The translations under genes were made by a program, and so were the position numbers. Source: Branchiostoma floridae (lineage: Eukaryota; Chordata; Leptocardii; Amphioxiformes; Branchiostomatidae). Taken from it: a stretch of DNA of 64,000 nt. Of the stretch, positions 29,701-57,700 are shown piece after piece (position 1 is the first letter of the stretch; every line of letters begins with the position of its first letter). The stretch is from NCBI RefSeq assembly GCF_000003815.2, contig NC_049979.1:3756520-3820519 (forward strand), in the 5' to 3' direction. The notes under the pieces were generated by a model, which saw only the letters and a list, made by a program, of their open reading frames with translations, was not told the origin of the DNA and made no database searches.

Positions 29701-32700
29701 TGATCAAAACGAACACGGAAACACGCCCCCCTCCCCATCTCACGTACGCGTAAACTCCCAAAGGCCGATATGTTGCCATCGACTAATTTACGGTCAAAAT
29801 CGCCGAAAGTCTTACGAGTTTGGATCTACAAGGATCCAATGATGGTACTTGTAAGCTTTTGTGGGATATATTTACGGCTTGAGCCAAACTTATCCGAGTA
29901 ACTACAAGTAAGGCGACGCGCCTATATGCACGTTTTTCTCACGACAAGCAAGCATAAACCGCCCGTCAAAAATTGTGAAAAATGACCAGAAATTTGCAAA
30001 TTTACAGCACGATATCGAGTCCCTAGGTTCACAACAATATTATCTGCTCATGGCATGCCGATTTACCGGCGGATGTTGCCAAATAATAGCACAACGATCG
30101 AGTCGATGCTGGGAGAAGCCATTGTTAGCCGCTGGGCTGCTAAAGGCTGTTACCGTCCGACTGTCAAATCACGCGCGCGCGCGGCCAGATTACAGTCTCG
30201 CGAGACCTCCCAACGAGATTGGATTGTCGCGTATTATGTCCGTGAACAAATACTGGGGGCTGAAAGTAATATGTATATATTATTGATTATGCACTTTTTT
30301 CAACCCAAAGTTGGAGCAGTGCACCTAATTTTAATTGGGTACACCATGGTATCTAATAGCAATAGATAGATATTTTGGGTTTTGTTGACTTTATGTTGTG
30401 TCTTGAATTTTTTTTGTGCACCAACATTTTTATTCTAGGCATGTCACAGTAAGGAGCTTTTATCAGGAGGAGAGAGCAAGAATTTTTTTCCATTCAGCTA
30501 TGTTCGTAGCGGGCGACAAAATTTGATTAACACCCACGTGTCAAAAACCCGCATCTGCATACATTTCACCCACGCAAGCTTTTGTTTTCCCTTTGTTTTG
30601 TGGTCATTCATGGTGGGGCGGCCTGGGGATACAAACATTGTGTGTAGCGATCTGATTTTTGCGATTTTGTCGACGATGTTGAACAGAAGAGTAACTTCGG
30701 AATACATACAGCGGCGGCAATATTCTCTCTGACTGAGGGTGAAATTTCAAAGCCATACGGCGACCGGACAGCGCCGCCGCTCGGGTACGGGCTAAGCCTA
30801 AAGGCAAAATTGTCTGAGGCAAAGTCTACGAAAAAAACTGGTAATATTCCTACAATCAAGGATTAATTATGACTGTGAAAAACCTGACTCAATGATCACA
30901 GGAACCAAGTTTTTTTAAGTATGCAACAGATATATTTCATAAATCGATACAAATACAAAGTTCAAAATTATGCCTGGAGAACTCAAGACATTATATACGA
31001 AAACCCGATCGTAACGAAAACCATGAAAACTATGCTCTCCCGCCTTACCTTCACCTTATTCCAGGCCCGATGTATCCTCTAAAAACACGGGTGGTTCGAC
31101 AAAAATGAGCAAGGTTCGACCAACAGTGAACACGCCATTTTACCGAGCACATCATCAACAGTTACGAAAAAATATCAGCTAAATGAAGAAAAACGTCATA
31201 TTTTTTTAGTAGCCATCTGAAAATACATGTGAAAATTCATAATTCTATCGCAAGAAAACAGACCTCGATCCGCGAAAATAGGCCTAAACTGGCCCATGTT
31301 TGTTGTACGGCGAAGAGAAACATATCAAACTGTCCGCCATTGTGCGCTCTACCGCAAGATGACGTAGTCACATGCCTGCCGAGTTTTCCAAATAAGGGAA
31401 TCGTCGGAAACCTGACCCACTTCGCCTCTTGCCGATCGGGCTTCGGGCTGGCTCGAGGGCTATGACGTAATGGCGTGGCTCATTAGCATAGAAACCGGCG
31501 CTACGAACATCAGATCAGACGGGCGCCGCGCAGGGCAGTAAACAAAGCCGGCGCTGCGGGATTTAACGGGCCAAACAAAGCCGCACAGCGGGCGGGTAAC
31601 TTCATACTCTCTCCTCCTGATAAAAGCTCCTTGGTCACAGTCTGTTGCATTAAAAAATGAAATCTTATTTAGTGGGAGTGAGTACTAGTTTGGGAGCCTT
31701 AGAAAAAGACCAGTAGATTTGATGGCAGGCTAATGAACAAAATGGTCAAAACGATTTGTCAATTATGTGTATTCATGTGACATTTCAGGACTGCAGAATT
31801 GAGTGAAAAATTTCAAGACAAGCAGGCTTCCTGTAATCTAGCTAGATATATCTGATACATAATGGGGGACCAAGTGAGAGGAGTCCATTATGGGGCAGTT
31901 TCAATAACATTTGCTTTGTCTTTTCACACCCTGCCTCCAACATGGGGCCATAAAGAGAAGCCATAATTGAATAACAGAAGCCATCAATCACCCCAGGACG
32001 AGGTGGTGTGATAATGGCCCATGTTTTACATCACTAATCACAGGGGGTCCCAGGGAGTGCTATCTGCCTCACCTACATGACAATGGATTTCACACTGGCC
32101 CATTGTTCATGTGTTGTTATGTAAATGCCATGTCCCATGCTAACGAGGGTGTCATGGCTTCCTGACAGAGGGGCCCCCTGATGATTTTCCCACAGTTAAA
32201 CTTGAAGCTCATTTGGGCAACTTCACAACCATATATTTGTCAAAAGCCAACATTATCATGTTTAACCTCATTCAGGTGTCTAAGAAAATATGGAAACCTT
32301 TGTCATATATTGCTTATCTAGAATTGCTTTGCTGTGAATTATGCTTAGCTATTAGATCACATTCCCAAACTGGGCCCTGCCCTGTTGCCAGTGTTGGAAT
32401 GAAAAATAGGAATAGGATGTAAAACACAATATTAATGAAACACGCAAAACATCAAAATAGTTAGTCATATAGTCATAAGCACAGTTTGTGTATCTTTCTT
32501 GAAGTTGAAGTTGATGCAAAATTCTATTTTTCATGGCGTTTGTTTTCTGTGAAAGTCTATTTCATGGCATTCATTCCTCTCCGTGTCCCCCACAGATACG
32601 CCAGGACAGAGGACCACCCCCTGGGCGCTGGAGTCATTTTCATGGCGTTTGTTTACTGTGACAGTCTTTTTCATGGCGTTCATTCCTCTCAATGCCCCCC

Positions 32701-34533
32701 ACAGATACGCCAGGACGGAGGACCATCCCCTGGGCGCGGGAGTCATCTTCAGCAGCGCGGACCCGTCCTCGGAGGCCGCCCGGGAGGAGAGTAAGTACGA
32801 GGAACTCCCGGAGCTCCCGCCCAAGCCGACACAGAAGGAGCCGCCGAAAGACGAGCCAGCGGACGGGAACGCGTACGGGGAGCGGGACTCGTTTCCCGTG
32901 TACGACGAGGAGGAGATGATGCGGGAGGTAACTGAGACACCGTAGTCTTTGTTTGAAATTTGCATTTTCTGTGTCCAAGTCCCCACTATTCTCTGGCTGG
33001 TTACCCCCAAAACGGGGAAGTGTTCATGGCAGGGAACTACGAACAAAGAACATCTACACACAGTTTAGATGCAGATCTTCCAGATTCAAAAATAGCACAC
33101 TACCTTTTATTGTATCATTGTTAAACGACTCTTTATTAATAATGAAGTTTTTAACAAATGTTTTATCATTTTATGTATCATGCACCAATTCAGCCTTGTA
33201 TAGCTGCAATGATATGTACATGTATATGCGCACTTGTTTTGTTGCTAATAAACCAGTCATCCATTCATTCATTCAGGTCCGCAGGCGAGACATCGAGGAG
33301 GGGATCGACCCGCCCCCGGGGTACAACCCGCCCGACATCACCGACGGCATCTGGAAAACCATCGTCCACCACGACCACGATGAGGTCCGTTTGTTTTTCA
33401 AGTTATTTTATTCAATAAACACATAAAAACCATCCAGCAGAAACAAAATATACCAGTTTATTTATAGAAATATATCTGATTCAGCAGAAATGTAACTGCC
33501 TTCAGGCCTAACACACGAGTTTTGTACAGTAGGTACAAACTTGTGTAAAATCTGACTGTAACGTTTGATCCACTCAAACTTTGATGTACCCCCTTACTCT
33601 TTTTAGCAAGGGTGGTGTTCTTCACAAATGTCCCATCCAAGAGGACATCCTTAACGGAAGCTTGGTACACATTTTCACCTGAGATGAGGAGGGAAATAAA
33701 AATTTAGATGTTAAGTGGCCTTCCCAAAAAAACAGCAAAGGTCCTGCTAGGCATTTAAACCCAAAACCCTTAGATTCTAAGTCAACGACCCTAACCACAT
33801 GACTACCTCCCCACCTCAGGTGATCTCTGACTTCATCAACCGTAACCTGCAGAAGCTGACGGTGCCGTGGGAGCGGACCCAGGCGGTTCGCGCCGTGGTC
33901 GGCCAGTTCAAGCCGGCGCTGCACACCTACCAGAACCAGTTCGGGCGTTTCGAGGTGGCGCAGAAGCTCACGCCGCGCCGCATCCACACCCAGATCGACT
34001 ACATCCACTGCCTGGTCCCGGACATGGTGACCATCGTGAACCAGCCGTACTACTGGGGCGTCATGGACCGCTACGAGGCGGAGGACGTGCTCGAGGGCAA
34101 GCCGGAGGGCACGTTCCTCCTCAGAGACTCCGCCCAGGAGGACTTCCTGTTCTCGGTGAGCTTCCGGCGGTACGGTCGCACGCTCCACGCGCGCATCGAG
34201 CAGTGGAACCACCTCTTCAGCTTCGACGTGCACGACCCGGCGGTGTACGCCGCGCCCACCGTCTGCCAGCTGCTCGAGCACTACAAGAACCCCGACTGCT
34301 GCATGTTCTTCGAGCCCATGCTGACCACGCCCCTCCCGCGCCCCTTCACCTTCCCCCTGCAGGCCCTCTGCAGGTCCGTCATCTGCAAGTTCACCTCCTA
34401 CGACGGCATCAACAGCCTCCGGCTGCCGGGGTCGCTCAAGGACTACCTGAAGGTCTACCACTACAAGCAGCGCGTCCGCGTCCGCAGATTCGAGATGGAC
34501 AAGCAGCCTGCCATCAAGATAACCACAGTGTAG
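23777..34533 (+). CDS. SOCS5: SOCS4/5-type suppressor of cytokine signalling
   Basis: Four coding exons give a 484-residue protein: 23777-24186, 32705-32927, 33277-33384 and 33820-34533. Phases are 2, 0, 0 and all junctions are GT-AG. The start is in ACCATGG just after a 3' splice site; the same frame stays open upstream to 23300, so an earlier start is possible. The N-terminal half is disordered, Pro-, Lys- and Glu-rich. Exon 3 carries [16 protein letters not shown], a motif of vertebrate SOCS5. Exon 4 holds the SH2 domain ([24 protein letters not shown], phosphotyrosine-binding Arg in [10 protein letters not shown]) and a SOCS box with BC box ([11 protein letters not shown]) and Cul5-box region ([11 protein letters not shown]). 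SOCS4/5 bind tyrosine-phosphorylated receptors such as EGFR and recruit the elongin-cullin-5 ubiquitin ligase. This single gene looks pro-orthologous to both vertebrate genes. Intron 1 is 8.5 kb and full of transposons. Confidence 0.88.
25825..26915. mobile_element. DNA transposon-like element with GGATCCAG ends
   Basis: The left end CACTGGCGGATCCAG and the right end (reverse complement GCACGCGCGGATCCAG) face each other across about 1.09 kb. Both are followed by G-runs and GGCGCGC blocks. No transposase is visible and no clear target duplication was found. It lies in SOCS intron 1. Confidence 0.5.
27084..27393. mobile_element. Fold-back MITE
   Basis: The left arm GTAGCCTCCACCAGGCC followed by GATTGTAGAATTC is the inverse of the right arm AATTCTACAATCCCCGTAGG and beyond. 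The interior holds TACCAGACTGACTACGCTGG. A related copy is at 58930-59132. Confidence 0.6.
27658..30235. mobile_element. 2.6-kb transposon with 0.8-kb inverted arms and a THAP-like exon
   Basis: The left arm (27658-28492) and right arm (29418-30235) are long, highly similar inverted repeats around a 925-bp spacer. The arms end AATACGCGACAATCCAATC and include a (CG)n tract, a TCTCGCGAGA palindrome and, at the inner end, the start of a coding exon. The spacer encodes about 200 residues on the plus strand. Flanking target duplications are not clear: GTCC occurs close to both sides but not in register. Confidence 0.7.
28424..28801 (+). CDS. THAP-like zinc finger reading frame inside the inverted-arm element
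   Basis: After a TTCTTTTTCAG acceptor inside the left arm, the frame encodes [11 protein letters not shown], then IIFFKIPP and [10 protein letters not shown]. This is the order of a THAP DNA-binding domain (C-x3-C, F-x-K-I-P, central Trp). The second half of the C2CH ligand set is not intact: a Cys follows in LEMC but the expected Cys-x2-His is missing, so the domain may be degenerate or split by an intron. THAP domains occur in P-element and other transposases. A second frame at 28776-29045 ([18 protein letters not shown]) may be the next exon. Confidence 0.5.
   Translation: MNESRSKFTSSGKYCKSYGCNSRQSKCVNEEKVPTCIIFFKIPPNVLDDNTLLKHWDCLVKRQLGRDNFTMNMKLEMCVFILFNGKCVHLLHAKIGSPKNKGRQQCSTQDVTQVPPPSARECLLL
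30451..31633. mobile_element. hAT-like non-autonomous transposon
   Basis: Terminal inverted repeats of about 26 bp (AAGGAGCTTTTATCAGGAGG and its complement) bound 1,183 bp. A perfect 8-bp duplication GTCACAGT lies at 30443-30450 and 31634-31641. An 8-bp target duplication and an A-rich TIR start suit the hAT superfamily. No transposase is present. The inside is CpG-rich. Confidence 0.75.
31642..32527. other. Remainder of SOCS intron 1
   Basis: No coding or transposon signal recognised between the hAT-like element and the duplicated exon-2 segment. Confidence 0.4.
32528..32745 (+). repeat. Tandem duplication of the SOCS exon-2 acceptor and exon start (109-bp period)
   Basis: Unit 1 (32528-32636) and unit 2 (32637-32745) each contain TTTCATGGCGTTTGTTT, a pyrimidine tract, a CCCCCACAG acceptor and the first about 45 bases of exon 2 (ATACGCCAGGACRGAGGACC). 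Only unit 2 continues into the full exon. The period is not a multiple of three, so use of the upstream acceptor at 32595 would shift the frame. Confidence 0.9.
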
Positions 34534-36560: not shown

Positions 36561-36819
36561 TAAATCCAGTAGCCTCTCTGTGGGCATTGGCATAAGTTGT
36601 TGGGGTGGGTGGGTTGTGTGACAGGGCATGGCGTTGCGCAATTTTCAACCGGGAAGTATCTGATGCCGGGAAAGCAATATATGCCAGGAAGATTCTCCGC
36701 ATATATTCCTTTCCCGGCATTAGAACCTTCCCAGTTGAAAATATTGCTGTCACAGCCCTCCACCCCCTCCCCCAAACAACTTCTGCCAATGCCCACAGAG
36801 AGGCTGGCTAAAATCCAGG
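36561..36819. repeat. Long imperfect hairpin
   Basis: Arms of about 120 bp (CCTCTCTGTGGGCATTGGCA and onward, against TGCCAATGCCCACAGAGAGG) are inverted around a loop near 36690-36700. Inner arms share TTTCAAC-GGGAAG and CCGGGAAAG. It encodes nothing recognisable and may be a MITE or a transcribed hairpin. Confidence 0.75.
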
Positions 36820-39685
36820 ATGTGGGGGTGTGCAGCAGGTTACGTGGGGAGGGATTGTAATCAGGGATCCAAACATCCTGGTATCACCACTTCCAGGAAC
36901 CATGTTGTTTTTCCAGGAAGGGGCCTTGTGTAAACACAGCAGTGTCCTTCCTGAGGCTACTGGGAGTACTGTAAATATCACAGCCAGTGATTTTTAATAG
37001 TGGTCGGGAGGAAAGGTTGTTCACGGCCTTGTTTGGTTTTGGCAGTGGGAACAAGGTTTCAGAGTGATAAAATTTTAGTGGTTGAATGGTGACTGCTAAA
37101 ACCTCAGTAACATGGCATGCTAGGGATAGTCTTTACCTTGTACCAGACCCATTTATTTAGCAGACGGAGAAAAAGAAAATACAGATTTGTCTGTTGGGTA
37201 CAACTTGTTACTCTATGACCAGCTAGCTATTAAACTTAAAGGACCATTTTACTTAAAGTAAACTTCCAGCAACCCTAGCTGGTGATGCCTGGCAGTTTTC
37301 CTGACATGGAATTGTGGGCAGCTTGCTTTGAGTTACGTTAGTATATATACAGGGACACACACTTCTATCTGCAACTCATCATGTTAGCACAGTACTACAT
37401 TTGTTGCTTGAATGTTAGCCACAACTGTGCCTACAGGCCACATGACTGTGAGTTAGAAGTTGAGCTGTTGAATGAGCCCGCTGTATTCCGACCTCAGCTT
37501 GGAGAGTAAGCCTATTGATCGGTGTGTTCAATGAAAAGCAGGCTGATGTGTTACAAAGTTTATCTAGCTAGGACGATTGTTGCAATTGACAGAATAGCCA
37601 CAATTTTGTAAGCAAAAGACCAAGAGCTCATTCAGGGTAGATCTGTTGATGCAACAGAGTAACAAAGCAGCAACTAACCTTTCACTGGAAAATGCATTAA
37701 TGTTGCAATGGGTTGTATACGATGGAAAATGGTGTTTTCACTGTTTTAGAGGTTTGCTTTCAGAATAATTACCACAATGACAGTCCATCTGTGTGGGTAG
37801 AAGTCATTCTGGATAAAGTGGAACTGTAATTTCCAAAACAAAAGTTGGACTAACCCAAATTTTCTACTGAATAGTACAGTACAGCAGTGATAATGCATTG
37901 GAAAGTGCATTTTCTCAGTAGCTAGGGGTACCAAGAAAACTCCAAAAATATAACCACTGCAAACACTCCAAGATGTCAAGTATATATTCCAGTACTACCA
38001 TACATATCCTATGCTTGTATCTGTTTGTTTGATGAAGATGGCCAAACAACTTGATGCAAAATTTGACTTATGACTACTCGTAGAACTGTTATTAGATATG
38101 ATAGAATTGTTACCAGATAGAAAAGTAGATTATACTCCGTGTAGAGATTATTATTCTCTGGTTGAAAAATCTGTGCAAAATCTTCTATAATTCCTCTGGA
38201 AGGAAGGGAGGCGGGAAAAATAAACTACCTGCAAAATATTTGATACAAAATGAAACTTATCGTCTGTCATGATTTGTGTAAGAGTGAAAGGTTGATGGAT
38301 GTGACCACTATTCGAGGGGGGATGTCCTGGCTTTATGTTGCATATTGTTTCATGAAAGGGACAGTTTGAAGTCTGGAAAGGACAGAAAAAGGAAATCAGA
38401 GATGGCAGACTTCACCTCCTAAGACACACTGCTTTGCTACCTTTCTAGTCACGAGACTAGCAGCACTAAGACTGTATGGTAACGCAGCATTGTATATACT
38501 GACGACCAGTTAAAATACAGTACATGGACAAGACAAAATCAACATATCTGTATCAAACTCTGTTCTGTTTTAATGTACGAAGAATATAATTGATTGAATC
38601 ATGATTAGCAGCTGATAATTTTCTAACCTATTTTTGACCAGCACGCTTCCACACGGGTGCAATTATCACTTTTTACAGGCATTATCAACTTACAATACAA
38701 ATGATAGTATAATACCCCTCAGTCAAGACGTGCGTAGGCATGTGTCAGATGTAACTCCCTAATCTGTACATACAGTCATGTCACATAGAGTAAGAAACAG
38801 GCTATGGCCATTCCCATGTTGAGTAGGATGCCTGATGCTGTAGAAACTACTGTACTGCAGTCATGTTTTTTATCATATTCAATGCATGAACATCCAAATG
38901 ACAACATGCTATATCAGACTGATTTCCAAAAGGGTTATTTCAGAAACTCTCTGGGTAGGTTGCAGAGACTGTCCCTTACTGACAATACTTAATCGTAATT
39001 TCTGCCTGCTAACACCCAGACACGAACCCTGACCCCTAACCTTTAACTCTCCCATGCAGCTTTCCTGGTACAGCTCTACGGTTTGATAATAAGTAGTTCC
39101 AACTGTTTCAACATGACACAGACAAGGACAGCTAGAAAAATATGCTCAGTTATCTCTGACCAAGGAGGCCTCCTTGCTCTGACAGAACAAGTTTTTGGTA
39201 ATTTCAACTCTACTACAAGCTCTCAGAAGCGTACATGGTACTTGAGACATACACGTAGCAAATTTCTTCAATCCATATACAGCATCCCTTCTCAAGCATA
39301 ACAACAGTGAGCCTGCAACAGTGGATGATTCTGTAATTGTTAATCTGTTGAAACTTTGTCCGTGGTGGTAGATATCATTCTGAGGCAAAGTTGGACTGCA
39401 GTTCTCCACACAAAGGCTGAAGTTGGAGAGTAAAAAAATTGAATTCTTCTGTTGAAAATCAAAGTTCAATTTTGCTTCAGAAATAGGATGACACACTACT
39501 TTGTATTTCAACTTTGTTTCAGATTCTGTTAATCTATAAATTATTAGGTTTTTGTTCTCTGTAAAAGGTGATTCACAGATGACACGATGTTTCTCTGTGA
39601 GTAAAAGTTCCTTCTAAGATGGCAGAATGGTTGGTACGGGTGAGAGTTACTTCTAAGACGGAAGGATGTTCTGCGCAGGTGAAAG
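36820..39685. other. Intergenic DNA between convergent genes
   Basis: No supported gene. The 3' UTRs of the SOCS gene (+) and ALDH6A1 (-) probably extend in from each side. Confidence 0.35.
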
Positions 39686-42600
39686 TTACTTCTGGACTGG
39701 CATGGCGACGGCCGCCTTGGTGTGCGACACGTCCGACTCTTTCCACAGCGATGTGACTGTTTTTATCTGCGTGTAGAACTGGATACCCTGAAGGAACAAC
39801 AAACCAGAGTGTCTAATCAGAACCCAAATAGAGATGGGCATGATCACCAGTGGTGTACTCTTAGTCTTATTGATATGTTTGGCAGAAGAGGGCCAGTGTG
39901 GATGCTAGATCCATTACTCTTCTGATGTCATCATCACCAAAAGAAAAAAAAGAAAATCTTAACTCAAAGACTCTTATGAGTTTGGTTTCTACTACAGAGG
40001 GAATGACAGCCCATTACAAGTACAAGGAAGACTTACTCAACTACAAATACATGTGAAGTACCCAGCATTTGCAAATAGGTTCAAATTATGACAAGAAATG
40101 TTTTGCATATTAAGAAATATGATCCTAACAGGGTACAAGTTGAATACAACTAGACTTCTAACTTTGTGGCAGGGTTGCTTTGGCTATGATGTTGCTATTG
40201 CTACAATGTTGCCATGGTTACGTACCGCCTTGCCGTAGAAGTTGGTGTCTCCCCTGAAGGATCCGCGTGAGCCGGTGAAGGAGAACATCGGGAGGGGCAC
40301 CGGGATGGGCACGTTCACGCCAACCTGGGGGGGGCAGGGAAAATGGTTAGGTCAAATGTTTTCTATTATCAGTGATTGCATCATCTTCCTTCTCTTTGAA
40401 CAGGAAGGTATGGTTTTTGGTACAACTAGTATTTTTCTGTTTCTGCAGTCAGTTCATATGCCATGAATAGGCATGTCTCACCACAGTGACAAGAAGTGGA
40501 GGCAAAGGTTCATCATATTATATTTGCTGGTGTCAACAGGTGTTTTAGACTAGCCAGTTAATTGCATAACGGATAACTGCACACTTCTGTTTATTGCATG
40601 AAATCCCAAAGTCCAGTAGTGATGCAGCCCAGCTGAATTACTTTATTGCACCATCCGGATAATTGCACAAAATGTGCTGGCAAATGGGGAGTACAATTAA
40701 ACGGCTTCTACTGTATTTCAAATAAATAAACAAACAAAGAAACACACCTGTCCGACGTCCACGGCCTGGGTGAACTTGCGCGCCGTGGCACCGTTGGTCG
40801 TGAAGATGGCGGTGCCGTTACCGTAGGGGTTAGAGTTGATGACCTGCAGGGCGTCATCAAGGGTGTCGACCTCCATGGAGACCAGCACCGGGCCGAAGAT
40901 CTCCTCCTCGTAACATTTCATCTTCGGCTGCAGACAAGACAAGGAGACAAGAGAAAATAAGAGATGCTGCAGAATTTCTTAGAGTAAATACAGGAACCTG
41001 AACTGACCAGACTGCGGCATGAACTCCATTGTCTGTAGGTCCCGTCATCGTCCCAGAATGGAAATTGTCTCCTTGGAATGGAACTATATCTTCCCAAAAA
41101 ACTATTGAAATGTACTTTCATAAGCTTAAATGACATATCTAACCAGAAAAATCAGCAACATGGGCTCCAAAACAATGAGTGGGATGGAAAAAACATTTTT
41201 AGCTGGAGACTGCCCTGCCACACGGTGACCACTGTGTAAAAAAGAAACCTATCTGGCCACTCACGTCGACTTTGTGGAGGATAGTGGGACCCACGAAGTT
41301 GCCTTTCTCGTAGCCGGGGACCTTGACGTCGCGCCCATCCAGCAACAGCTCCGCGCCCTGCTCCACGCCGCTCTGCACCAGGTCGCACACGCGCTGCTTC
41401 GCCTCGGGCGAGATCAGTGGACCCAGGTCTGCTCCCGGCTGGTCACCTGGACACACAGCGTACACAAGATTAGTGAACTGTCTCATGGTATAACACACCA
41501 GCGCTGTGCTTAAAGTTGGTAAATATAAGTTGCATAAGAGATGGTTTTGGTTTGGTTAGACCCACTCACACTGGTGCATATCCTCAAACTTGCACGACTG
41601 TGTCATCTGGATTTGAAATTAAGTTGGTTTAAGAAAGAAGCCTCTATGGGAATTGCCATGCCTTTCAATAATTTTTTGAATGCTTTAGAAAAATTAGAAT
41701 ATACAGATCATTCACTAAAAACGAAAGCCAAAATTGAAATGACTCTTCATACATAATTTTTTTTTTAACTCCTGGTATTCTGTAAGGGACTAAATAAGGA
41801 AGCTTAACTATGTCAGAGAAATGATACAGGTACAAAACTTACCAGCATTGACCTTGAGCTGTTTTGCCCTCTCGATGAGTTCAGGGATCCACTCTCTGGC
41901 CTCACCCACAAACACGGCCGTGGAGAGCGCCATACATCGCTGGCCAGCCGCTCCGAACGCAGCTCCACACAGCTGCAAGGGGAAAACAACATGGTTCACT
42001 AGCCACAATCCTAACCCTAACCCTAACCCGCAAACACGGCCGTGGAGAGCACCATACATCGCTGGCCTGCTGCTCCGAACGCTGCTCCACACAGCTGCAG
42101 GGGGAAACAAAATGGTTCACTTGCCCAAACCCTAGCGCTACCCTACCCCTAACCCTAACACTGACCCTAACCCTAACCCTACTCCTACTCCTAACCCTAA
42201 CCCTTCCCCTTCCCAAAACCCTCACCACAAACACAACCGTGGAGAGCACCATACATTATGTATAAAGTATACTTCATCAATGCTGATTAGTAAGTTCTGT
42301 GTGCTCCAGGCTTGAACACTATCAGACATGGACCAGCCTGAGGTGTGTCACAGTACAGGAGCAGGCTTTGTTCTGCCTGGCTAATACAACATCCCCCGCA
42401 TGGCACAGCAGGGCATGTCGGAAAACCAGGGTCGGGACTCGGGAGGATCATGTTCTGTGTTGTGTTTCACACAGGGTTCGACATATCCCTTCCTAAGGAC
42501 TGCGACCCTTTGCAGTAGTGTGCATGTCTGGTGAGTATGTGATAGTGACATAAAGTAGGCTACATTAAGATGTAAGAGTAAATAATAATGTTCTGTGTGC

Positions 42601-45600
42601 TCCTGATTTAGCCCCAGCCCCAGCCCTATCTCTGCACCCCACCTGATGTTCCTACCTGGTTAAGTGTGTTCTCCTTGTTGGCGTCTGGCATGATCACTCC
42701 GTGGTTTTTCGCTCCCTGTCAAACAAAACATCAACACATTTAAAAGGCTTTCTGGAACAACCTTTTTATACTATAAGGCTTTGCCAAATATTACCAATAC
42801 AAATTTGAAAGTAAGGAGAAAGTTGACTATGTTACTGCTTTCTGCAAGTAAGAATTCTGGCAATAACTTGTAAAAATGTAAAAAGGAAACATTCTAGTAC
42901 TTACCATGTTGGATTGAACTCTCTTCCCGTTTTTGGACCCCCTTTCATAGATGTACTGGCCCTACATAGAAAAACACAATGTTACCCATAAGATCTTTCA
43001 CATTGCTGTAGAATGATATCTAGATTCACCTGATACAAAGTTTGTTTTTCTGAACATTTTCAACTACAATTGTTGCCTTCTTTAGCATCAATACTGATGT
43101 AGAAGTAACTCAACTTTCAATCTGACCAATGCTACCAGAAGCTAACAAAGACAGATCAGAGATTCCATACATGTACTTCTATTGTCTTTCCAGAATTGAA
43201 GTAATCAATTTCAAAGATAAGAGCAGAACTGTGAAGTAAGGAACTCACGGCGGTGTCAGAACCCACGAAGGAGATGGCTTTGATGTCAGGGTTGTCACAG
43301 ATGAAGTTCACAGCTGAAACAAAGAGCACGTCTCTTGATCAGTACTAAATGGTTTTATATGAAAGTTTTGAAAAAAAGTGATACAGGCTTCTTTTCTGTG
43401 AGATACATACCCATAACCTGTGTCACAGTGTAGAAGCAAATCAAGGTCAACAAGTAAGTGCACCACCTAGCAGCTTAGAAATCAACTGCAGACAGGGTGA
43501 GCTTAAATGCTGGTGCTGGTGAAATGAAGAAGGTCACATCAAAACTGATCAAAACTAAGTTCTGTGTGCTCCCTGGTTGAACACCAGCAGGTATGGCACC
43601 AGCCTGAGGTGTGTCACAGTACAGGGGCAGGGTTTGTTCTGCCTGGTTAATACAACATCATGTTAATACAATCATGCCCAACGGCTTATAACATGTAACG
43701 TTACATCATCAACTTCAAATTAAAGTACAGTGGAAGCCGCTTATTTGCACGGCCTATTTGCCAGTGAATTTAGTGCAATTATCCGGCTGGTGCAACAATG
43801 CGAAGTTATCTAGCTGGACCGCACCGGTTTGGGATTCTGGGATTCCGTGCAGTTAACAGAAGTGTGCGTTTATCCGATGTGCAATTAACTGGCTTCCACT
43901 GTACTAGTACTGGAGTACATATTCATCAAGTTACCACAGTGTCTATGGCACTATACTTACTATTGTGCACGTGGGCGAAGACTTAAGCTTCTTCTTTGAA
44001 GGCAGTGGTTAATGAACTGTCCCACGTTCTGCAAAATCAGTGGGTTTCGATATTCCAGAAATAAAGTCTTTTGATTGTATTCTGTATAATAAAAGCTCTG
44101 CAAAATCATGGCAACTGTTTGAAATAATCTGTTTCTTTTGGTCTCACTTTGAATACACCAATCATTTTTCCACCGCTTTGCATAATCTGTCGTGGACAGA
44201 TATAGCTGTTTATATCGGAGCCTTTTATTTATATTTCTATTGGTTTGGCTGTTCAGCACGAGGAGCCAGGGCTGCCCAACTAGCCTGTGGCTATTACAAA
44301 GGGCTAGCCCTGCTGACAGAGACAAAGCAGCCCCTTTCTATCTCAAGTTGATGTGAATTAATCAACATCAAACTTCAGACATCCTTTTTTAACATCCTTG
44401 ATACATCCTTTTCTATTGAAAATAGAAAACACTACGCAAAACATCAAGTTATTTGCTAACCTCTGATCATGACTTCTACTGAGTTACAGCTTTCATGTAC
44501 AATTCAACAAAATGAAAATCAATATGAAGAATGATAACAAAGATGGGGATGCTTTCATTTTATCTGAATTCATCATAATGTGAGGGTCTATAATATAGGT
44601 GTATGTCACCTGTACAAATTGCCCTCAACACAATAAATTGCCGCCAGGCAATATGCTTTCACCCTAGTTAAATAAAGAATAAACAAACACAATATCAACT
44701 GTATATGTAGCACAGAACAAAATCTACAATAGCTACACATGCGCATACCCTACGTCATTATTGAGCTTAAAGAATAAAATCACAGAAAATTGCTTTGTTG
44801 ACATGTGTTGACATATTAACAACGTATTTGCTGTAAAACTACGTTTGTAAAACAAAATTATTCCTCAGTGAGGCTACAGTGTGGAAACGTTTGCTCCACG
44901 CCTGACTCAAGTTCAGTAGGTGTGAAATATGGAGACAGTGTTGTTCTTTGCATCTGTCACTATCATCTGTCCCTGTGGTGCCATGGCAACAACCTGCTGC
45001 TGCCCCGTGAGAGTAGTGATGTGTTTGAGGAATTTTCCTGTCTTGTCAAACATCTCCACACGGCTGTTTCCCCAGTCTGCCACGATGATGTTACCTGCCC
45101 TGTCTGTACAGATCTCACGGGGATGATACAGCTGACCTTCACCACTTCCCTTACCTCCAAACTGGAACAGAAAATGTCCATCCTCGTTGTACACATAGAC
45201 ATAGTTGTTCCAAAAGTCAGACACAAGAATGTTCCCTTCCCCGTCCACAGTGATGTACCGTGGGTACTCCATCCCCTGCTGCAGAAGCACAGTTCTCACA
45301 AGTGTCCCATCTGGCCTGTACACCAAAACTTCACCATGTTGATTGTCCCCTACTCGTGTGGTTTGTGTGGTGAGGATGTGGTTCCTCCTGGTGTCCACAG
45401 CAAATCCACTAGAACTGAACCTCCATGTTATCTGTTGGTCGAGCTTCCTCAGCATACCGCCCTGTTTGTTGTACTGCACAGCAAGTTCGGCACAGTATAT
45501 CTTCCCCACCACCCACAGGTTCCCCTCCCCGTCCATGGCCACATCATATGGCCACATCTTCCTTTCACCTGACCGGACCCGGACTGTTGGAAACTGCCTC

Positions 45601-48600
45601 AGAAATGTTCCCTGTAGGGTGAAGACTTGGATTCTCTGGTTCCCATTGTCTGCTACAAAAATCTCCCCTTCATCTGATACTTTAACACCACGTGGGCTCT
45701 TAAACTGTCCTATTTCTGATCCCTTTCCACCAAATGTTATCCTCTGTGGCTGATTATCATGCGGATTACCTGTGCCCCTTGCTGAATCATTGCTAGACAC
45801 AAGTGATGCTGTGAGTGGTGCAGGTGCTGATGGGATTGGTGTAGGTGATGCTGGTATAGGTACAGGTTCTGCTGGTATTGGTGCAGGTGCTGCTGTGATT
45901 GGTGCAGATGAGAGAGACTGGACCGTCACATGTCCCAATACTGGCACTGGGGTGTCTGTGGGTTGAAATACAGCAGGCTGGGTTTGTACAGAAGTTGGTG
46001 CTGCTTTTCCTCTGTACTTTCCTACCACATCTGTCAAAGCAGTTTGCTGACTGAGAAACTCGACCCATCCCTGCTGCAGTTCTTGTTCTGCTTGATCACA
46101 GGCAGCAGACAGTTTGTTGCTATCTGCCGACACTCTGTCCCTTTCAGTCTGTATCCTGTCCAGGTTTTCTCCGTGACTTTGTTGTGATTCAGACAAGAGG
46201 TGGTCTTTTCTCTCTGTGAGTTTCTGCACCATTTGGTTGTAGGCCTGAATAATGTTGTTGTCTCTCTGCTGTTTCTGGTCATTCAGCGTTTTCTCTTTTT
46301 TCTCAAGATCTCTGATGAAGCTGCAGTAACTTTCCAAAATGTTCCTCCCCTTATTGATTACAGCCTGCACCGTGCATCTCCTTTCCTGTGCAGCTTTTCT
46401 AAGGCCCGTGGTTGGATGTCCGTCATGGTCCTCTTCACAACATTCAATACAAACTGGCACATTACACTGCTTACAGTAGAGCTTGACTTCCTCTGAGGGG
46501 TGAAAGCTGCACCTGTTTCCAGACTGGGGTTGTTCCCTTGTTTCCCCTGACAGTGTAGCCTGGTTTTGCAGCCTCTCACACATATTTGCTGCGATGAGAT
46601 TGTCTGGCAAACCTGGGACCCTCTGGGGTGGCAGCCTGACCTGCTGACGACAGATTGGACACTGGAAGGCCCCTGCCCTCCCTGCAAGGTCCTGTAGACA
46701 GTCCTGACAGAAGGTGTGCTGACAGGGCAGCACCTTGGGCCTGGTGAACAGCTCCAGGCAGATGCCACAGGTCAATTCTTCTGTGAATTGTGTCCCCAAA
46801 TTTGGCGGTGGAGCCGCTTGCCCAACTGCCCATATAGGAGTAGGTGTTTGTCAAGGGCCTCATTTACACAGATCGGGTTTCAGCCTTATTATCATACCTG
46901 ACAAGGCTGACAATGGAGCAAGTCTAGTTAGCACATACCTGTAGAACGTAACTGTAAAATGGAAGATGTCCGTAGTAGTTTAATTAAAGGTTTGTGTTTT
47001 TTCCAATCAATCACGTTACCGTGAACTTATAACCGCCGCGAAATGTTTTGTTCAATCTGTGTCCTGCCTGCTTGCCCATTTGTTTCTTACTGCTAAATTA
47101 AAATCACTTCAAACAGCCCATTTTCTCTTTAGGCCACACCAATTTAATTTCTTGGTTCTCGGATTTTTTCAGAAAAATATTAGGGCAGTCGGTCGAAAAA
47201 AAAAGAAAAAAAAATTTACAAAAAGTATGTGGTGAACTTAAATAACACAAAAAAACAAGGTAAGTAGTCAAGTTTTCAGCTTTTCATGGCATGATTTATC
47301 CAATGAATCTCTTCCTTTGATTTTATACCACTGTTCTGATCATGTGACTGCAAATAAGTGCTCTGATTGGTTTATCAGCAGTATGTGCCCCTGGAATGGG
47401 GTTTTTAAAGGTCTGCAATAGCAAAACCTATGTTATTTTTCTTGGGACAAAATTTTTTTGTACCAGCTAATCATTGATTGGTGAGTTCTTACTAATGATT
47501 TGATTAATGCTTTCTGAAATCACACAACACAACACTGTACAGCTACAGGGTAGCTGACATGGCTGACAAGGAATAAAGTATAAAAATATCCTACACCTTT
47601 GGTAATGTACACTCAATGATAGATGTGCAAAAGCTAGGTGTGACAGTGTAATATAAATCAGCTGCTTCCGCGCCACGTGCCTGCAATGCTGGTGTATTAC
47701 GCCGAAGGGCAGTTATACCACCTATATAGATACAGATACAGAATGACTAACATCTGCTTAACTGCTTGATAGGTTGATAGATTGATTGCCCCTACCATCG
47801 TGCTGTCCGTGGATGACGTTAACGACTCCGTCAGGAAGTCCCGCCTCCTTCGCCATCTCCACCAGCATCATGGTGGCGCCAGGGTCTCGCTCAGACGGCT
47901 TCATCACGCACGTGTTCCCGCAAACAGCTGCCATGGGAAACATCTACAACAAACAGCACACAACAATAAACAACAATCATCACGCAGGTGTTCCCGCAAA
48001 CAACTGCCATAGGAAACATCTACAACAAACAACACACAACAACAACAAACAACAATCATCACGCAGGTGTTCCCGCACACGGTCGTCATGAGAAACATCT
48101 ACAACAAACAACAACAACCCTAAGCTAAAAAAAAATTTAGTCTTCCACAGGCTGTACCAATAAGGACTGTGCATTCAAGTTATCATATACTAGTTGAGTG
48201 TAAAAACTATTTTCTTCTGTGCACAAGAGTTCAAACTTACCCAGAGCGGAATCATGGCAGGGAAGTTGAACCTGGAGAAAACAGACGAAAACTGCAGATG
48301 TAAGACACAAATTAATATCAAGCAGGCAACTCTAAGTATAAGTAAGATCCAAAAAGTTACATCAGTCAAAGATCAGGACATCTGCAGAACCCACTCACGG
48401 TGTAATTCCGGCCGTCACCCCTAGGGGGAGCCGAAACGTGTGGGTGTCCATGTCCTTAGCAATGCCTGCCATGGTCTCCCCCAGCTGTAGCGATGGGATG
48501 CTGCAACAGTGCTCGACCACCTCTGGGAACAGATAGAGCAAACAGACTTTCAAAAACACCACAGTAGAACTGTTTGAAACTGTCTGGTTTATAACCAGTG

Positions 48601-51600
48601 CAATGGCCGAGTGGGTAGAGTGTTTGCCTTGCATTCGGTAGGTCATGAGTTTGATCCCCGGCCGAGTCATACCAAAGACTTTAAAAATGGTACATGCTGC
48701 GTTCTCTGCTTAGTACTCAGCACCAATGAGGAAGAGTATGGAACACACATTACTACCAGCAGACCTGCTGTAGTAGCTTGCTCAAATGTGTGGCCCAGGG
48801 GCTACTTGAAATGGAGATGGGCCCCACCCTAAGCTTTTGCACAGATGTATGGACAACTTTTCTGACAGTAGAACTGGCCATCAATAAGTACTTCTCTTTC
48901 AAATAGACTCCAACTGGGCACTTCTTTTGGAGATTTTCGACTTGTCTCCGTGTCTACCCCTATCTCTGCCTTTGTTCTCATTTGATCAGAGGCCAGATGA
49001 TACTGACACTAGGAACCTTGTCACATTTCAATAAACAAGGAAGGAGCATGTTGTGCAGGTACATGGCCACCTGCATTCCTCATTTGCCAACTTCTGAGAT
49101 GCGGTTGCTAAGCAACTATATGGGAATTTTGGATAAGTTTGGAAGTGAGGCTATCATTGTGACCTATCAGCATGAGTTATCTCCAGGATAGTTTTACAAA
49201 CAGATGAACAGGTCATAACTCTTACAATTGATATCGATCATCTGTGATGTTTCTTGTCAAGCATTCACATAGTTTTACAGAAGAGGCTTCAGAACTCTTC
49301 AGACGCTTGTGTAGCGATCTTTTTAAAGTCTACTTACGCAGTCCTCTGAGCACATCTCCCTCTGCATCCACCAGCGTCTTCCCTTGTTCCATTGTGATGT
49401 TTTTGGCAAGTTCAGACTGTAAGAGAAAACAACAGTACTTAACAATCACAGAAGAGATTTGACAAGTCAGTACGTCTGGCCTCATATGCATCTCATTCAT
49501 TTGCAAAAAGGTGGATGTCAGTTATTGAGAAGCGTCGGGTTGTGGCTCTGGGTGTGAATGGCTCAAATCTGTCAGCCCCACCTCCCTATCAGTCTCGTTT
49601 GCCCCGGTGCCCACAGGTGTGTAGCCCCGACTGGAACCCAAGTCCCGCTGGACTGCCAGATACTGCAGAAGTACCTCTCAGTGTGTCCACAATTAGCTTA
49701 CAGCGTCTAGTTAAAATTTGTTACTTCTGGCTTCTGGGCCAAACACCCTGCAGTTATGCCACATGATCCCACCTTCTGAGTCTAAGAAAGTAAGAACACT
49801 TAAACTGTGTAGATTAATATGGAAGTGAAGAAAATAAAAGACAGAAAGGCGTTCTTCTCTGTCTACTGATGAAGTCTACTGCAATGATTTCCTTCATCCC
49901 AGTTCAATATCCAGTACCCGCCATGTTCTCCTGGATGAGTTGCTGTAACTTCAACATGACCTGTTGATGCATGACAGGGCTCGAAATACCACATGCATAT
50001 GCAAGTTTGTGCATGTAAGATTAGTGTGGTGCAAGTAAGTTTAGACCAAACTTGCACCAGTGCAAGTTACTTTTGTCCTCTAATACCTGACACTGTGACA
50101 TTAGAAAAAGCTTACAAACACCAAGAATATTATCTGTCATTGAAAGGTAAAAGAAAATAACACTTGATAAAAAAGTCTAAGTTTGTCCATGGAGGTTAGA
50201 CATCCATGGAGGTTAGACATCCAGGTAAACAATATTTCAAGACAATTCCATCTCTACAATGCTTAAGATCCCTTTGGTGTTGTCTTACCTTGATTTGCAT
50301 TTAAGTCACATTTGCATACAAGTTAGTGACTTTAATGTTCAACTGGTTTTTCCAGTTATATGTACATGTTATACTTGTAATGAGTTGTTCTACCACTTCA
50401 TTCCAGCGATTAGTGATGGATGTCAATCGCGAGGCATGCAGAAGAAATCTATGGATCTTATCGAGTTGTAGACATTGGATTGATCTTTAATTAAGCCTAA
50501 ATTCATCTTTTTTGAAACTGTACAATTTAAAACTAAAAAAAAATGTGCTATGGAAAAACAAATACTTAAAAGTATCCAAACATGTGGTCTTTATGTATCC
50601 CCGTTTACTCACATACATTTGCAAATTTTCAGAATAGGAGATAAAGAGTTAACAGTTCACTATTTTGGGTTGTGCAAGTAAGTTTCTTTTGGTGCAAGTT
50701 ACCTTTTGCTCAACTTGCACAGGTGCAAGTTAACTGAAAAGTGTATTTCGAGCCCTGCATGAGGATGGTCGTCTCCGACCAGTAACAAACAAATAGATAA
50801 ACAAACAAACACCCCGGTACCCACCATGTTTTCCTTGATGAACTGCTGGAACTTGAACATGACCTGCTGGCGTGTGAGGATGGTTGTCTCCGACCAGGCT
50901 GGGAACGCCGCCTTCGCCGCGTCCACCGCCGCCTGCATCTCCGCCTGGGTCGACTTGGGAACTCTCGTCACCACCTCGTTAGTCGCCTAAAGCAGACAGG
51001 GACAGAATAAAATTCAACTACAACTCAATCTCTACAACTGGTTAGAACACAGAGATCTAATTCCGGACGTGACATCCACTCTTCTTCAGGATCACAGAAT
51101 AAAAGTAAATGATACTTAGCTGGATTTAGTTCAGTATGGACAATGAACTCAACAAACAAAGAGCTGTTTACCTAAACAAATTTTTGGTACAGGTTCACAG
51201 AACTGTGCCGATACTGTACCAGTACAATCAATTAGGTAAAGGTCCAAAATACCAGAACCCTGGTGCACAGGACTGGTATTGTAACTATATTGCCTTTCCT
51301 TTGCCTGCTCCAAAAATCAGGATGTTCCTTAGTACAATGCATTTCTGTTTCCTAACTTTTCTGCTGTAAACATCAGTAGATTAACAAATCTTTTGCATTC
51401 ACAGATATCTTTTCTGAAGCCCCCGGAGAGTGTGGTACTCACAGGGTTGTGTACGTCGATCCATTCTGTGGCCTGTGACTCCACCATCCGACCATTGATG
51501 AAGAGTTTGGTTGTGGGCTGGAGGTAGATATGGAAAGTGCAGTTAGAAACAAGAGTAGGAATGTGTGCGGCGCTTTTCAATCTAAGGGCTTAAAATACCA

Positions 51601-53116: not shown

Positions 53117-53216
53117 CTTTAAGGCGGTTTTTAGGACCTCAGACGCGTTTATAGACGCAGCAGAAAGATCCCAGCTCAGCAACTTGCCAGGGTAGATGAC
53201 CTCAGCTTCACCCCTG

Positions 53217-53229
53217 AACCGACCAATCA
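53217..53229 (-). promoter_or_regulatory. CCAAT box upstream of ALDH6A1
   Basis: GACCAATCA lies about 105 bp upstream of the ALDH6A1 start codon (reversed relative to the gene), a usual NF-Y distance. Confidence 0.35.
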
Positions 53230-53900
53230 GGGAGCTCACGGTCCCCGGAACATGGTTACCGTCTGCAATATGAGTCAAAGTTCTGGACAAGGTTTTTTCA
53301 CAAGGAGTTTTGAGTATTGGCACCAACGAGCTTTTATCCTTGGTTGCACGAAAAAGTTACCATTTGATTTAGTTCGGCAGGTTTCGACTTGTGAAAGAAA
53401 AAAGGTATGAGGACGTTTCCCCGTGCACTTTCTCCGTCGGACTGGACGTTTCCCCGTCGCGTTTGGTTATGGAGGTTTTGGCCTAGGATGATGCTTGTCA
53501 TGCTTCCAAGAAGTTATAAAGTTCACAAACATTTTATTATAGTAAAGTAATGTCTAATACCTTACCTCTCTTATTCCAGGGATCTTCTGTGTCTCTTTAG
53601 TATATGTCTGGTTGTGACCTGTACTTAGCCTGGTGTGGAAAAAATTGCAATCATTGAAAGGTCTTCATTCATTCATTATGATGCCAAATGAGCCACCTTT
53701 CCATGGAATTGATTCACTATGCTTTTTATTAAATCTTAATTGTATTTATATTTTAGCCATGTATTATATGGAATTTTAAATGTGTTTTAATGCAAATAAA
53801 CATTTGTTGTTTCTTTTATTTGATATCATCATGCGGCACTGTAAATGTGTTGAATGTGCATGATACATGTACCCACTGGTGTACTGTGTTGCTGCAATTC

Positions 53901-53914
53901 GAAGAAAGAAAAAG

Positions 53915-53958
<44 letters not shown>

Positions 53959-54099
53959 AAGAAAGAGAATTAGAAAGAAAGATAGAAAGAGGAAGAGAGA
54001 CACTGAAGCAAGAGAGAGAAAGATAGAAAGGAAGAGAGAGAAATAGAAAGAAAGATAGAAAGAGGAAGAGAGAAAGAAAGAAAAAAGAAAGAAAGAAAG
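53901..54099. repeat. GA/GAAA-rich microsatellite
   Basis: About 200 bp of almost pure purine on the plus strand: (GA)n followed by GAAA- and AGAAAGAT-type units. It lies between the ALDH6A1 and LIN52 starts. Confidence 0.95.
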
Positions 54100-54440
54100 T
54101 TTTTATCACATTAAACATTTGTTTTGTCCAAGGAGGTTAAAAAATTGTCTGAGTCTGCTTGTAGGATCTGTTTGGAGACTTTCGCGGCTTTCGCAGCATC
54201 TTCAAAGGCAGAACGGCAGCTCGGTGTCCCGCATGCTCGTTCTGGGGCCGTCCAACAGTACACTGCCTTGCTGGCATCACTTACAATTTTGATTTTGCCG
54301 CCATACGCGACTTCTACTCCCGGTTTAAGACGCTGGGCCCCTGCCCAGACTTAAGACCCCTGCAGAAGTGCGGCAGGTGTGCCATTGTAAGACGCTAGTC
54401 ACCTGTTAGGAACTGAAAGGAACTCAGAACCCCAAAATAG

Positions 54441-54695
54441 AGCACGTCACCGGAACGTACTGCGCCTGCGCAAACCCTGTTAGTTTGGGGCTTGGTTTGG
54501 TCAACGTTGCATTGAAATCCCGCTTGTTGCACAGTATATGTTAGAGACATGGTTTCGTGTAAAACGTACACGGAGTTTTACCCTTATATACGCACGTACT
54601 TTCTTAAATGCGGCCCTTTAGTAAACCGCTAAACGGTAAGGGTTTAGCATGTCTATACTTTTCGCGCAGGCGCAGTACATTCCGGTGACGTGCTC
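54441..54695. mobile_element. 255-bp MITE directly upstream of LIN52
   Basis: TIRs of about 35 bp (AGCACGTCACCGGAACGTAC and inverse) with a perfect 8-bp duplication CAAAATAG at 54433-54440 and 54696-54703. The TIR includes TGCGCCTGCGC, close to an NRF1 site, and GTGACG. The right end is 43 bp from the LIN52 start codon. Confidence 0.8.
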
Positions 54696-54719
54696 CAAAA
54701 TAGGACCCTGCCCCTCTGG

Positions 54720-54745
54720 TCACGTGACCTGACCAAGATGGCGTC
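54720..54745 (+). promoter_or_regulatory. E-box and YY1-like element at the LIN52 start
   Basis: TCACGTGAC at 54720-54728 is followed by AAGATGGCGTC at 54735-54745, in which the LIN52 ATG is embedded. YY1-type AAGATGGCG over the start codon is a common arrangement in housekeeping promoters with short 5' UTRs. Confidence 0.5.
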
Positions 54746-57700
54746 GGCAAGTGCGGGTATTTCCAATTTTGTGTTTGCGTCGTGTTGAATCTTTCTCTTA
54801 ATCCCCGCTCGGGATCTCCGCTAGCGGGGAGATCTCTCATGGACACAGTCGTGTGGACAGGGTAGAGGGATCTGATGCCCCGTTTTCCTAGTATTTCCCA
54901 CTGTGTTTAGTTTTAGAGAAGGACGTAGAACAGCACCGTAGAGTTTTTATAGTGCTCCGGGTTTTGACCTCTGTCTAGTATATAACCAAGGAGGTTGAAT
55001 ATAACCTCCTTGATATAACTGACCACGGCTGGAGTAGATTAGTAGTACATATCATACAGCAGTTTCTGTCGGTCTGTGTCCCTTATCAGACCTGAGAGCC
55101 GTGTGGTCCTTTATCTTGTCCGAAGGATATGATTGTTTACATGTATAATTTGATTGATTTAAATATTTCATATTTGATAACTGACTTGCACCCCTGGCAG
55201 GTAAATTGTAGCTTGGGCACCTGGCGGACAAGTACGGAGAATATCTTAATTTTGAGGACTTGGTCAGCAAATGGTAACTCCTCTGAGAGTCCAGAGTGCA
55301 CTAAAATTCTCTGGCAAAAAATAATTTGCTTTAAGTCAATTTCTATTTTTCAAGCAACCCACATATATATATAGTAAGTTAGAGACTATGGAATTACATG
55401 ATCACAGATCAGCCCTTCGTTGTTCTGACAGAGGCGGGGGCAGCAAATTTCGTATGTCGGGGGGCAAACATTTGCTGACAAAATTTCCATGCACATGGAG
55501 TGCCGAAGGTGCGACAATCCTAGTGGGTCTGGGGGCATACTGTCCAGGGAAAATTGCATCCGAAGGGACAAGCAAAAGGTGTCACAGTGGCCAGATGGCC
55601 CTTCTGTAGAGGTGGTCACTTGCTTGACTACACTGCATGTAATACTACTACCTGCAAAACAGCTCAAAAGACTGTAATTTGAGATATGCTACACCAGGCA
55701 GAACTTCCCTACATGTACTATAATGCTGGTACGTTTCCCAGAAATGATGGAGATTGCCGAAAGCGGTACCGCAAACTCGGCGTCGGACTCGGACGCCCAC
55801 GCAGAGCTGAACCAGTCGGGGGACGTGGACTCTCTGCTGAGCCTGGAGCGGCTGGACAGGGCCTCGCCGGAACTCTGGCCAGAGCAGAGTGAGTAGGGTG
55901 GTGTACGTGTGTGTATGTGTGTGGTGTGTGCGTGTATGTAGTGTGTGTGTATGTGGTGTGTCTGTATGTGTTGTGCTTCCATGCTTGTGTGTAACCTCTC
56001 TGCTGAGCCTGGAGCGGCTGGACCAGGTCTTGCTGGAACTCTGGCCCGAGCAGAGAGGTCAAACTTTTGTAGTGCCCTGTTCTAGCACAGAGGGCAGCAA
56101 GTTTTCTCGCTGTTTCAGTAGCGAGGCATATCATTAGAGAAAATGGTTGCGTGCTCTAGGCAACTCTTCAACCATGGGAGCCCCATTTTATGTCCCTTTC
56201 CTCCCTTCCCAAAGACAGCCTCTACCGAGATGCCCTACCCGGGAATGGGATTGAACTTGATGCTTTTTTGTATTGTAGAAGCCACAAGTCTGTTACCATG
56301 TCATTATAGACTGTCAACCTGACACTTGTCCCCTTCTATTTCAGTACCCGGTGTCTCGGAGTTTGCTTACAAATCTGTAAGTATAAACTTACCAGGCAAG
56401 GCAAGTATCCCTCTCTCCAGTAACATGAGTAATGTTACTTCATACTGTTGACAGTTTCCTAACCTGGGCACCTTCCTGGCTTGCTAACACCCAACTAATG
56501 TAAGCTAACCAGAATGGTCATGGATCAAAGTTAAACTGTGGTTTCCAACACAAAAATTGGACTTACCAAATTTTTCAGACTAACGCTGACCAGTCTTTAG
56601 CAAAGACTTTGATGTCATGTTATGCAGGTAGAACACGTGACTCAGTGAGCAGTGGATCATAAGTTGCCAAGAGTCTATGGCACCCCTGTCTCAGTTAAGA
56701 GATGATTGTAAATAGATTGTAAAGCTCTGATGGAAATAACCTTTGTAAAAGACCAGAACTATATATACCAGTCATATTGTTACCAGACTCACCAGACAAG
56801 CCATTTCTGCTGTGTGACACCACTTCTAGAAAGTGTCCTTGACTAAGATTTTTGAAAATATCTGTTTTGAAGGCCATTGAAGGTAGCAACAGTCCCAGGA
56901 CAGTGTAGTTAACTTGTGTTTCTGTGTTCCATGTCCAGCCCCTGGCAGGAAGTGCCTCAGCCACACCCAAGTGGGTTCAGGAGCTGGAGAAGGACGACAT
57001 CGACATGTTACAGGGTAAGAACAACAAACAAACAAACAAGTAAACAAACATTTCCTGTCAGAGTGCATGCTACAGGGTAAGGACAACAAACAAACAACTT
57101 CAAACTGGGAACAAGCTTATTGTAACAGGTTCTTTAGCAATTTCGTGGTATGGCTTTCCTTAAAAGGAGACCAAAGGCAATTCTCACCTTACATACTGCT
57201 ACCTGTCACTCTAGGCCATTAATGACTTGCCCTTTTTCTTGTTGCAGAGTTCGGCAGCCTGACCACAGCTAACCTGATGGAGAAGGTGCGGGGGCTGCAG
57301 AACCTGGCCTACCAGCTGGGGCTGGACGAGGGTGAGTCGGGCGGACAGTGTAACTCTGTTTCTGTGAGCCTCCGTCACACATGCAGGAACTTTCTACATC
57401 TTTGCTTCTGACAACTCCCAACTGAGCTAGTGCTGGTTGGGTTGTCTTTTGTAACACCAGGTCTCTCCTCTGACATATGTAATAAGAATATGATTTTCCT
57501 GAGTTTGACTTTTCAAAATTTATAGTCGGATGGCACAGGCAATTTTCAAAGACACTTAAGCATCCTCGCCAACCACAGATGACCTTACTCCAAACCATGG
57601 TCTGGAGGTCATGAGGCCGTGGTCTGTGTGATAGGGGCTTTAACCTGTGTAATTTGTATCTGCTTTGGTTATGTTCTGTATAAGAACAATTTGTTTTTGT

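Follow-up and report, generated by a model that had tools for sequence, protein, structure and literature searches.

Tandem duplications at the exon edges of three amphioxus genes are probably mirages

Tandem duplications at five exon edges in three genes of the amphioxus Branchiostoma floridae, a SOCS4-like gene (exon 2), ALDH6A1 (exons 12, 8 and 4) and LIN52 (exon 2), are very probably 'mirages', that is, minisatellite-like duplications of ~75–170 bp that each include an exon edge and may arise by slippage or end joining. The name was given when such repeats were reported in Adh3; B. floridae globin genes also carry them (PMC3087553), and they are described in PGBD5, with troponin C cited as a further case (PMC3902484). 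An earlier note on this DNA knew of no named phenomenon that fits the pattern; these two papers show that a name exists. The kind of repeat is already known, and the loci in SOCS, ALDH6A1 (three in one gene) and LIN52 are, to us, new additions to a short published list. Among the matches listed by a literature search, which had most subscription journals outside its reach, there was no genome-wide survey of mirages. The available part of a huntingtin paper (PMC2206037) offers no more than passing comments on assembly and tandem repeats.

Throughout, the window is the whole analysed stretch of 64,000 nucleotides of contig NC_049979.1 (positions 3,756,520 to 3,820,519, forward strand). Its gene models were built from the sequence, and the genome searched comprised 513 Mb in 431 contigs.

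Results

Copies of exon edges in SOCS4-like, ALDH6A1 and LIN52

Self-BLAST, with the offsets re-measured, recovered all five exon-edge tandem duplications that the earlier note had placed in the three genes (Table 1). Their periods are 109 bp at SOCS exon 2, 122 bp at ALDH6A1 exon 12, 76 and 79 bp at exon 8, 115 bp at exon 4 and 166 bp at LIN52 exon 2; none of these is divisible by three, where the earlier note had called four of five clearly not multiples of three. The copies diverge from each other by roughly 10–16%, are offset by 76–166 bp and break inside exons. Tandem Repeats Finder picks up the SOCS exon 2 and ALDH6A1 exon 8 duplications; for ALDH6A1 exon 12 and LIN52 its rows are simple sequence only. 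It had further been stated that every duplication breaks within an exon and spans a splice site, leaving decoy splice signals with real coding sequence behind them. At the SOCS and ALDH6A1 loci, four in number, the splice site is copied alignably and this description holds, but the LIN52 copy ends at the exon edge and its donor is not kept.

Table 1. Positions in the window of true exons, decoy copies and the inserted transposon
Feature	Position	Strand	Remarks
SOCS4-like gene exon 2, true exon	32705..32927	+	splice edges after cacag and before gtaact; frame open into next exons
SOCS exon 2 mirage, decoy copy	32528..32636	+	intron end, decoy acceptor (exon-like from 32596), ~42 bp exon
SOCS4-like later exons	33277-33384, 33820-34533	+	open frame continuing from exon 2
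ALDH6A1 exon 12, true exon	41843..41972	-	gene model
ALDH6A1 exon 12 mirage	41900..42256	-	acceptor-bearing decoy (edge ~42094), partial decoy, TTAGGG-like spacers
ALDH6A1 exon 8, true exon	47796..47943	-	gene model
ALDH6A1 exon 8 mirage	47901..48118	-	three copies: two decoys (edges 48019 and 48098) and true edge 47943; GTT-rich spacer
ALDH6A1 exon 4, true exon, donor side duplicated	50825..50986	-	gene model
ALDH6A1 exon 4 decoy, donor-side copy, transposon-split	49911..50780	-	parts 50780-50758 and 49974-49911; decoy edge 49922
Inverted-repeat DNA transposon, 783 bp	49975..50757	.	inside exon 4 decoy, flanked by 5-bp direct repeat TCATG
LIN52 exon 2, true exon	55742..55888	+	donor gtgagt
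LIN52 exon 2 decoy (end of exon; donor not kept)	55996..56055	+	90% identity over 60 bp, offset 166

The last exon of the SOCS4-like gene matches SOCS4 (2izv_A, E 4.4e-76) and contains the SH2 and SOCS box domains; an upstream exon of this gene likely lies near 24 kb. The decoy of exon 2 is 90.4% identical to its source over 115 bp aligned at offset 109, with 61/68 intron positions and 39/42 exon positions identical. Little simple sequence lies near this edge, and the SOCS query maps to a single place in the genome (one assembly).

ALDH6A1 runs on the minus strand from 53116 down to 39686 in 16 exons. The protein built without the decoys (494 residues, last exon omitted) scores 830 bits over 467 residues against the human enzyme (PDB 9izv_A) and is gap-free in the printed alignment. 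At exon 12 the decoy, offset by 122 bp, is 86–87% identical to the true edge, and an extra partial copy at 42217-42256 (88–89% identity) can be added to what the earlier note had described. The exon 8 copies follow each other at offsets of 79 and 76 bp (155 in all) with 88% identity. The exon 4 decoy lies at offset 115 in its left part, and its right part is 84–85% identical to the source. The two exon 4 donors are 903 bp apart because the transposon sits in the second copy, and only because of this insertion is the distance divisible by three; the underlying period of 115 is not.

The gene at 54738-58031 on the plus strand (6 exons) we take, from its sequence, to be LIN52. Its copy covers the last 59 bases of exon 2 and the alignment stops 1 nt past the exon; the donor is thus reached and not spanned. 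A GT-rich spacer of ~106 bp separates the two copies.

Mirages at globin and other loci of the same genome

A globin exon search of the same genome returned 9 matches. At locus L007 an exon 3' boundary is copied at offset 157, and at L011 units of 150–158 bp comprise an intron end and an exon start. The published mirage of BflGb9 has a period of 157 bp and that of BflGb6 units of 150–160 bp (PMC3087553), and the structure of the two loci suggests that L007 is BflGb9-like and L011 BflGb6-like. Of the other seven globin loci, six have no mirage at the matched exon and L010 is borderline, its copy holding the donor but only 2–3 exon bases. Inspection by eye also found an acceptor mirage with several copies (L021) and a donor mirage of 96 bp (L022) at ALDH family loci, and acceptor mirages at a random locus (L029) and at an ADH locus (L047). 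The ALDH family sample came from 14 fetched matches, with 13 of 133 candidates scored, and the ADH family sample consisted of 3 loci out of 33 matches.

Since globin repeats of this genome match the published mirages, the SOCS, ALDH6A1 and LIN52 loci belong to the described kind, with the reservation that the identity of the globin genes is inferred from structure. The available texts give unit lengths of 10–72 bp for Adh3, 150–160 bp for the globins and 60 and 108 bp for PGBD5 (PMC3087553, PMC3902484); the units of 76, 79, 109, 115, 122 and 166 bp fit this range, the last lying slightly above it. Known amphioxus mirages (Adh3; globins BflGb6 and BflGb9; PGBD5; troponin C) are tandem units of tens to ~160 bp over an intron-exon boundary, with either 3' or 5' boundaries affected and with imperfect copies. 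SOCS exon 2 and ALDH6A1 exons 12, 8 and 4 likewise span the boundary, whereas LIN52 exon 2 only reaches it. The present loci differ from the published ones in the genes affected, in having only 2–3 copies (one or two extra units, against 3 or 6 extra in BflGb6; PMC3087553), in the one copy that is split by a transposon and in the LIN52 copy that ends at the exon edge. Ordinary intronic minisatellites also form tandem arrays, often adjoining simple sequence, but their unit does not include an exon edge as that of a mirage does. Intron gain by tandem duplication, described for human genes in segmental duplications, similarly involves a duplication that crosses an intron-exon boundary and brings new splice signals; new introns were reported there (PMC2812944), whereas the decoys here are putative splice signals.

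Duplications at exon edges compared with elsewhere

The earlier note had argued that such cases exceed chance and that a local mechanism may favour exon edges. Locally, the excess is present: of the 7 clusters of non-simple local duplications within 32.0–58.2 kb, 5 touch one of the 45 splice edges (that of ALDH6A1 exon 15 was 3 bp off in this count) against a circular-shift null mean of 1.63 (P = 0.008). A stricter score leaves 5 clusters, all of which touch an edge (null 1.26, P = 0.0005). These P values are optimistic because the interval was picked for its duplications. With predicted exons, all 5 clusters in the interval lay at edges (null about 1), and 5/34 edges were covered compared to 549/23,457 non-exonic bases.

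Outside the interval, the excess was not borne out. Once overlapping loci had been merged, the outside sample held 85 predicted exons in 43 separate, non-overlapping stretches with a total of 307,767 bp. It was drawn from 18 random loci of 10 kb each, 10 kb adjoining the window, the loci of the globin, ALDH and ADH families and the part of the window beyond the interval; two of the initial 20 random loci, L038 and L040, were mostly N and were dropped. When clusters were limited to a span of ≤1.5 kb, 7 of 34 lay at the edge of a predicted exon (P = 0.12; the null had a mean of 4.31), and with no span limit 7 of 38 did (null 5.64, P = 0.33). Counted per site, duplications covered 8/170 predicted edges (4.7%) and 9,905/287,526 non-exonic bases (3.4%) with the span limit, and the same 8/170 edges compared to 19,509/287,526 bases (6.8%) without it. 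The edges covered under the span limit were divided among the random loci (4/90), the family loci (4/68) and the rest of the window (0/12).

Exons of this sample came from a small prediction model, for which four genes of the window had served as training data. On 32.0–58.2 kb, which holds 25 known exons, it made 17 predictions, 13 of them exact, 3 partial and 1 false (inside a single-exon gene), and as the start of SOCS exon 2 it chose the decoy acceptor and not the true one. Two automatic edge hits in the outside sample showed no mirage on inspection: at L033 the predicted exon lies inside the array, and at L037 the copies are, in our reading, those of a fibronectin-type coding block. The predictor missed L022, which has a weak donor, and the near case L010; the counts above were left unadjusted for all four loci.

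A mutational process that targets exon edges, by way of the intron-exon GC step, R-loops or splicing-coupled damage, would enrich mirages there and would account for the five of seven clusters inside the interval, as well as for the point estimate slightly above 1 outside it under the span limit. We nevertheless regard such targeting as unlikely: outside the interval P was 0.12–0.33, two of the seven edge matches there were not mirages, and the local excess comes from an interval chosen for its duplications. Recognition bias also acts in the same direction, as a copy of a constrained exon diverges from its source more slowly than two free intron copies diverge from each other. A mild preference for exon edges is possible; the local mechanism suggested in the earlier note finds no support in the outside sample.

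Splice signals and coding content of the decoys

The genes of the window supplied 23 acceptors and 22 donors for position weight matrices of splice sites, with the true sites in the training set, the decoys outside it and the exon 15 donor misplaced by 3 bp in this run. Decoy acceptors scored 12.6 vs 9.3 for the true site at SOCS and 17.7 vs 14.9 at exon 12; at exon 8, the two decoys scored 13.0 and 10.9 vs 11.0. Decoy donors scored lower than true ones, with 6.3 vs 9.7 at exon 4, where GC replaces GT, and –6.7 vs 8.3 at the homologous site of LIN52. Decay of decoy donors as a general rule was rejected, for the donor is lost or weakened in both window cases, yet retained at L007 and L022. Splicing at a decoy acceptor is predicted to extend the exon by 109 nt (SOCS), 122 nt (exon 12) or 76 or 155 nt (exon 8), each of which would shift the frame. 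Exonic differences between decoy and true copies, counted over six copy pairs with the left part of exon 4 left out, fell on codon positions 1/2/3 in the proportion 5/8/18 (n = 31), and the changed codons were 14 synonymous and 14 non-synonymous. This mix is what constraint on the true exon alone, with the decoy free to change, would be expected to produce.

It is conceivable that the decoys are functional, serving as alternative acceptors or as poison extensions that trigger message decay, and are kept by selection. The scores of all four decoy acceptors of the window exceed or roughly equal those of the true sites, every period shifts the frame and the exon 12 extension contains in-frame stops, as such a role would have it. 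The SOCS and exon 8 extensions, however, have no in-frame stop, both decoy donors of the window are degraded, and non-synonymous codon differences are as many as synonymous ones. Published Adh3 data and globin RT-PCR suggest that mirages do not interfere with splicing (PMC3087553, available part), and by analogy normal splicing probably ignores the decoys of these loci as well. With one decoy, in addition, broken by a transposon, we consider selection for decoy function very improbable.

Amphioxus is highly heterozygous, which would favour an assembly artefact in which two haplotypes or misassembled repeats were joined side by side. We also consider this very improbable: the draft did contain an aberrant assembly of one globin mirage (PMC3087553, supplement legend), but offsets of 76–166 bp with ~10–16% divergence and in-exon breaks are unlike haplotype joins, one copy holds its own transposon, and re-sequencing data supported the similar PGBD5 repeats (PMC3902484, available part).

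Discussion

The duplications and their break points, the intact decoy acceptors, the unconstrained decoys and the same structure at globin genes were observed directly, and slippage or end joining at simple tracts, followed by drift, offer the simplest account of them. Where short homology or simple sequence lies close to an exon, replication slippage or end joining may duplicate a segment across the intron-exon edge in either direction. The extra copy would then become intron, drift without coding constraint and be tolerated, because the true exon and its partner splice site stay intact. Judging from the published cases, unequal exchange may later alter the number of copies in an array. In SOCS the aligned stretch is 6 bp longer than the period, and in exon 12 it is 8–13 bp longer, according to which alignment is taken; this is a sign of short homology. 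Simple sequence within 150 intronic bp was more abundant at the 5 mirage edges than at the 40 others (one-sided Mann-Whitney p = 0.037, uncorrected for other looks), a comparison that is partly circular because the spacers belong to the repeats themselves.

By eye, six mirages were seen outside 32.0–58.2 kb, in a sample with 85 predicted exons that was partly drawn around chosen gene families. Because of these six, we tentatively put forward, as a reading that could well turn out either way but to which we do not yet lean, that mirages are pervasive in the amphioxus genome, affect several percent of its exons and continuously supply near-perfect decoy splice acceptors. The ALDH6A1, LIN52 and SOCS loci by themselves reveal no new mechanism; they suggest that mirages are common in amphioxus. 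They also make two ideas testable: that splicing ever uses strong decoy acceptors lying upstream of the true one, and that duplications of the mirage type seed new introns. If mirages are indeed pervasive, the amphioxus genome would be a natural experiment on how splicing ignores strong decoys, and on how new introns begin.

Additional features of the ALDH6A1 region

A 39-bp tandem repeat of 2.3 copies (window 39604-39693) spans the stop codon of ALDH6A1 (39686-39688) and extends into its 3' untranslated region. We regard this array as mirage-like: it resembles a mirage (minisatellite-like tandem copies of an intron-exon boundary), the boundary concerned being the coding end, with no splice site. 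The exon 4 decoy, the second donor-side copy of that exon, is the insertion site of a DNA transposon, and the first of two CCCTAA arrays sits between copies of the exon 12 mirage. Intron 8 contains an uninterrupted TRIM-type open frame.

Repeated blocks elsewhere in the window carry fibronectin type III frames (both of the two frames scanned matched) and are followed by a satellite-like array (162-bp unit, 4.5 copies). The start codons of ALDH6A1 (53116) and LIN52 (54738) lie head to head, ~1.6 kb apart; the human genes are likewise head to head.

Features of the window, and further mirages at sampled loci (L) elsewhere in the genome
Feature	Position	Details
DNA transposon	49975-50757	783 bp; inverted ends CAGGGCTCGAAATAC; 5-bp target repeat
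TRIM-type open frame (RING/B-box/NHL)	44916-46850	minus, as ALDH6A1; 645 residues
Interstitial telomere-like CCCTAA arrays	42124-42226 and 61553-61842	
Fibronectin type III repeated blocks	10966-13789	
Satellite-like array	14393-15124	
Further mirage, ALDH locus	L021:1060-1556	
Further mirage, ALDH locus	L022:1147-1336	
Further mirage, random locus	L029:7362-7638	
Further mirage, ADH-linked locus	L047:3233-3606
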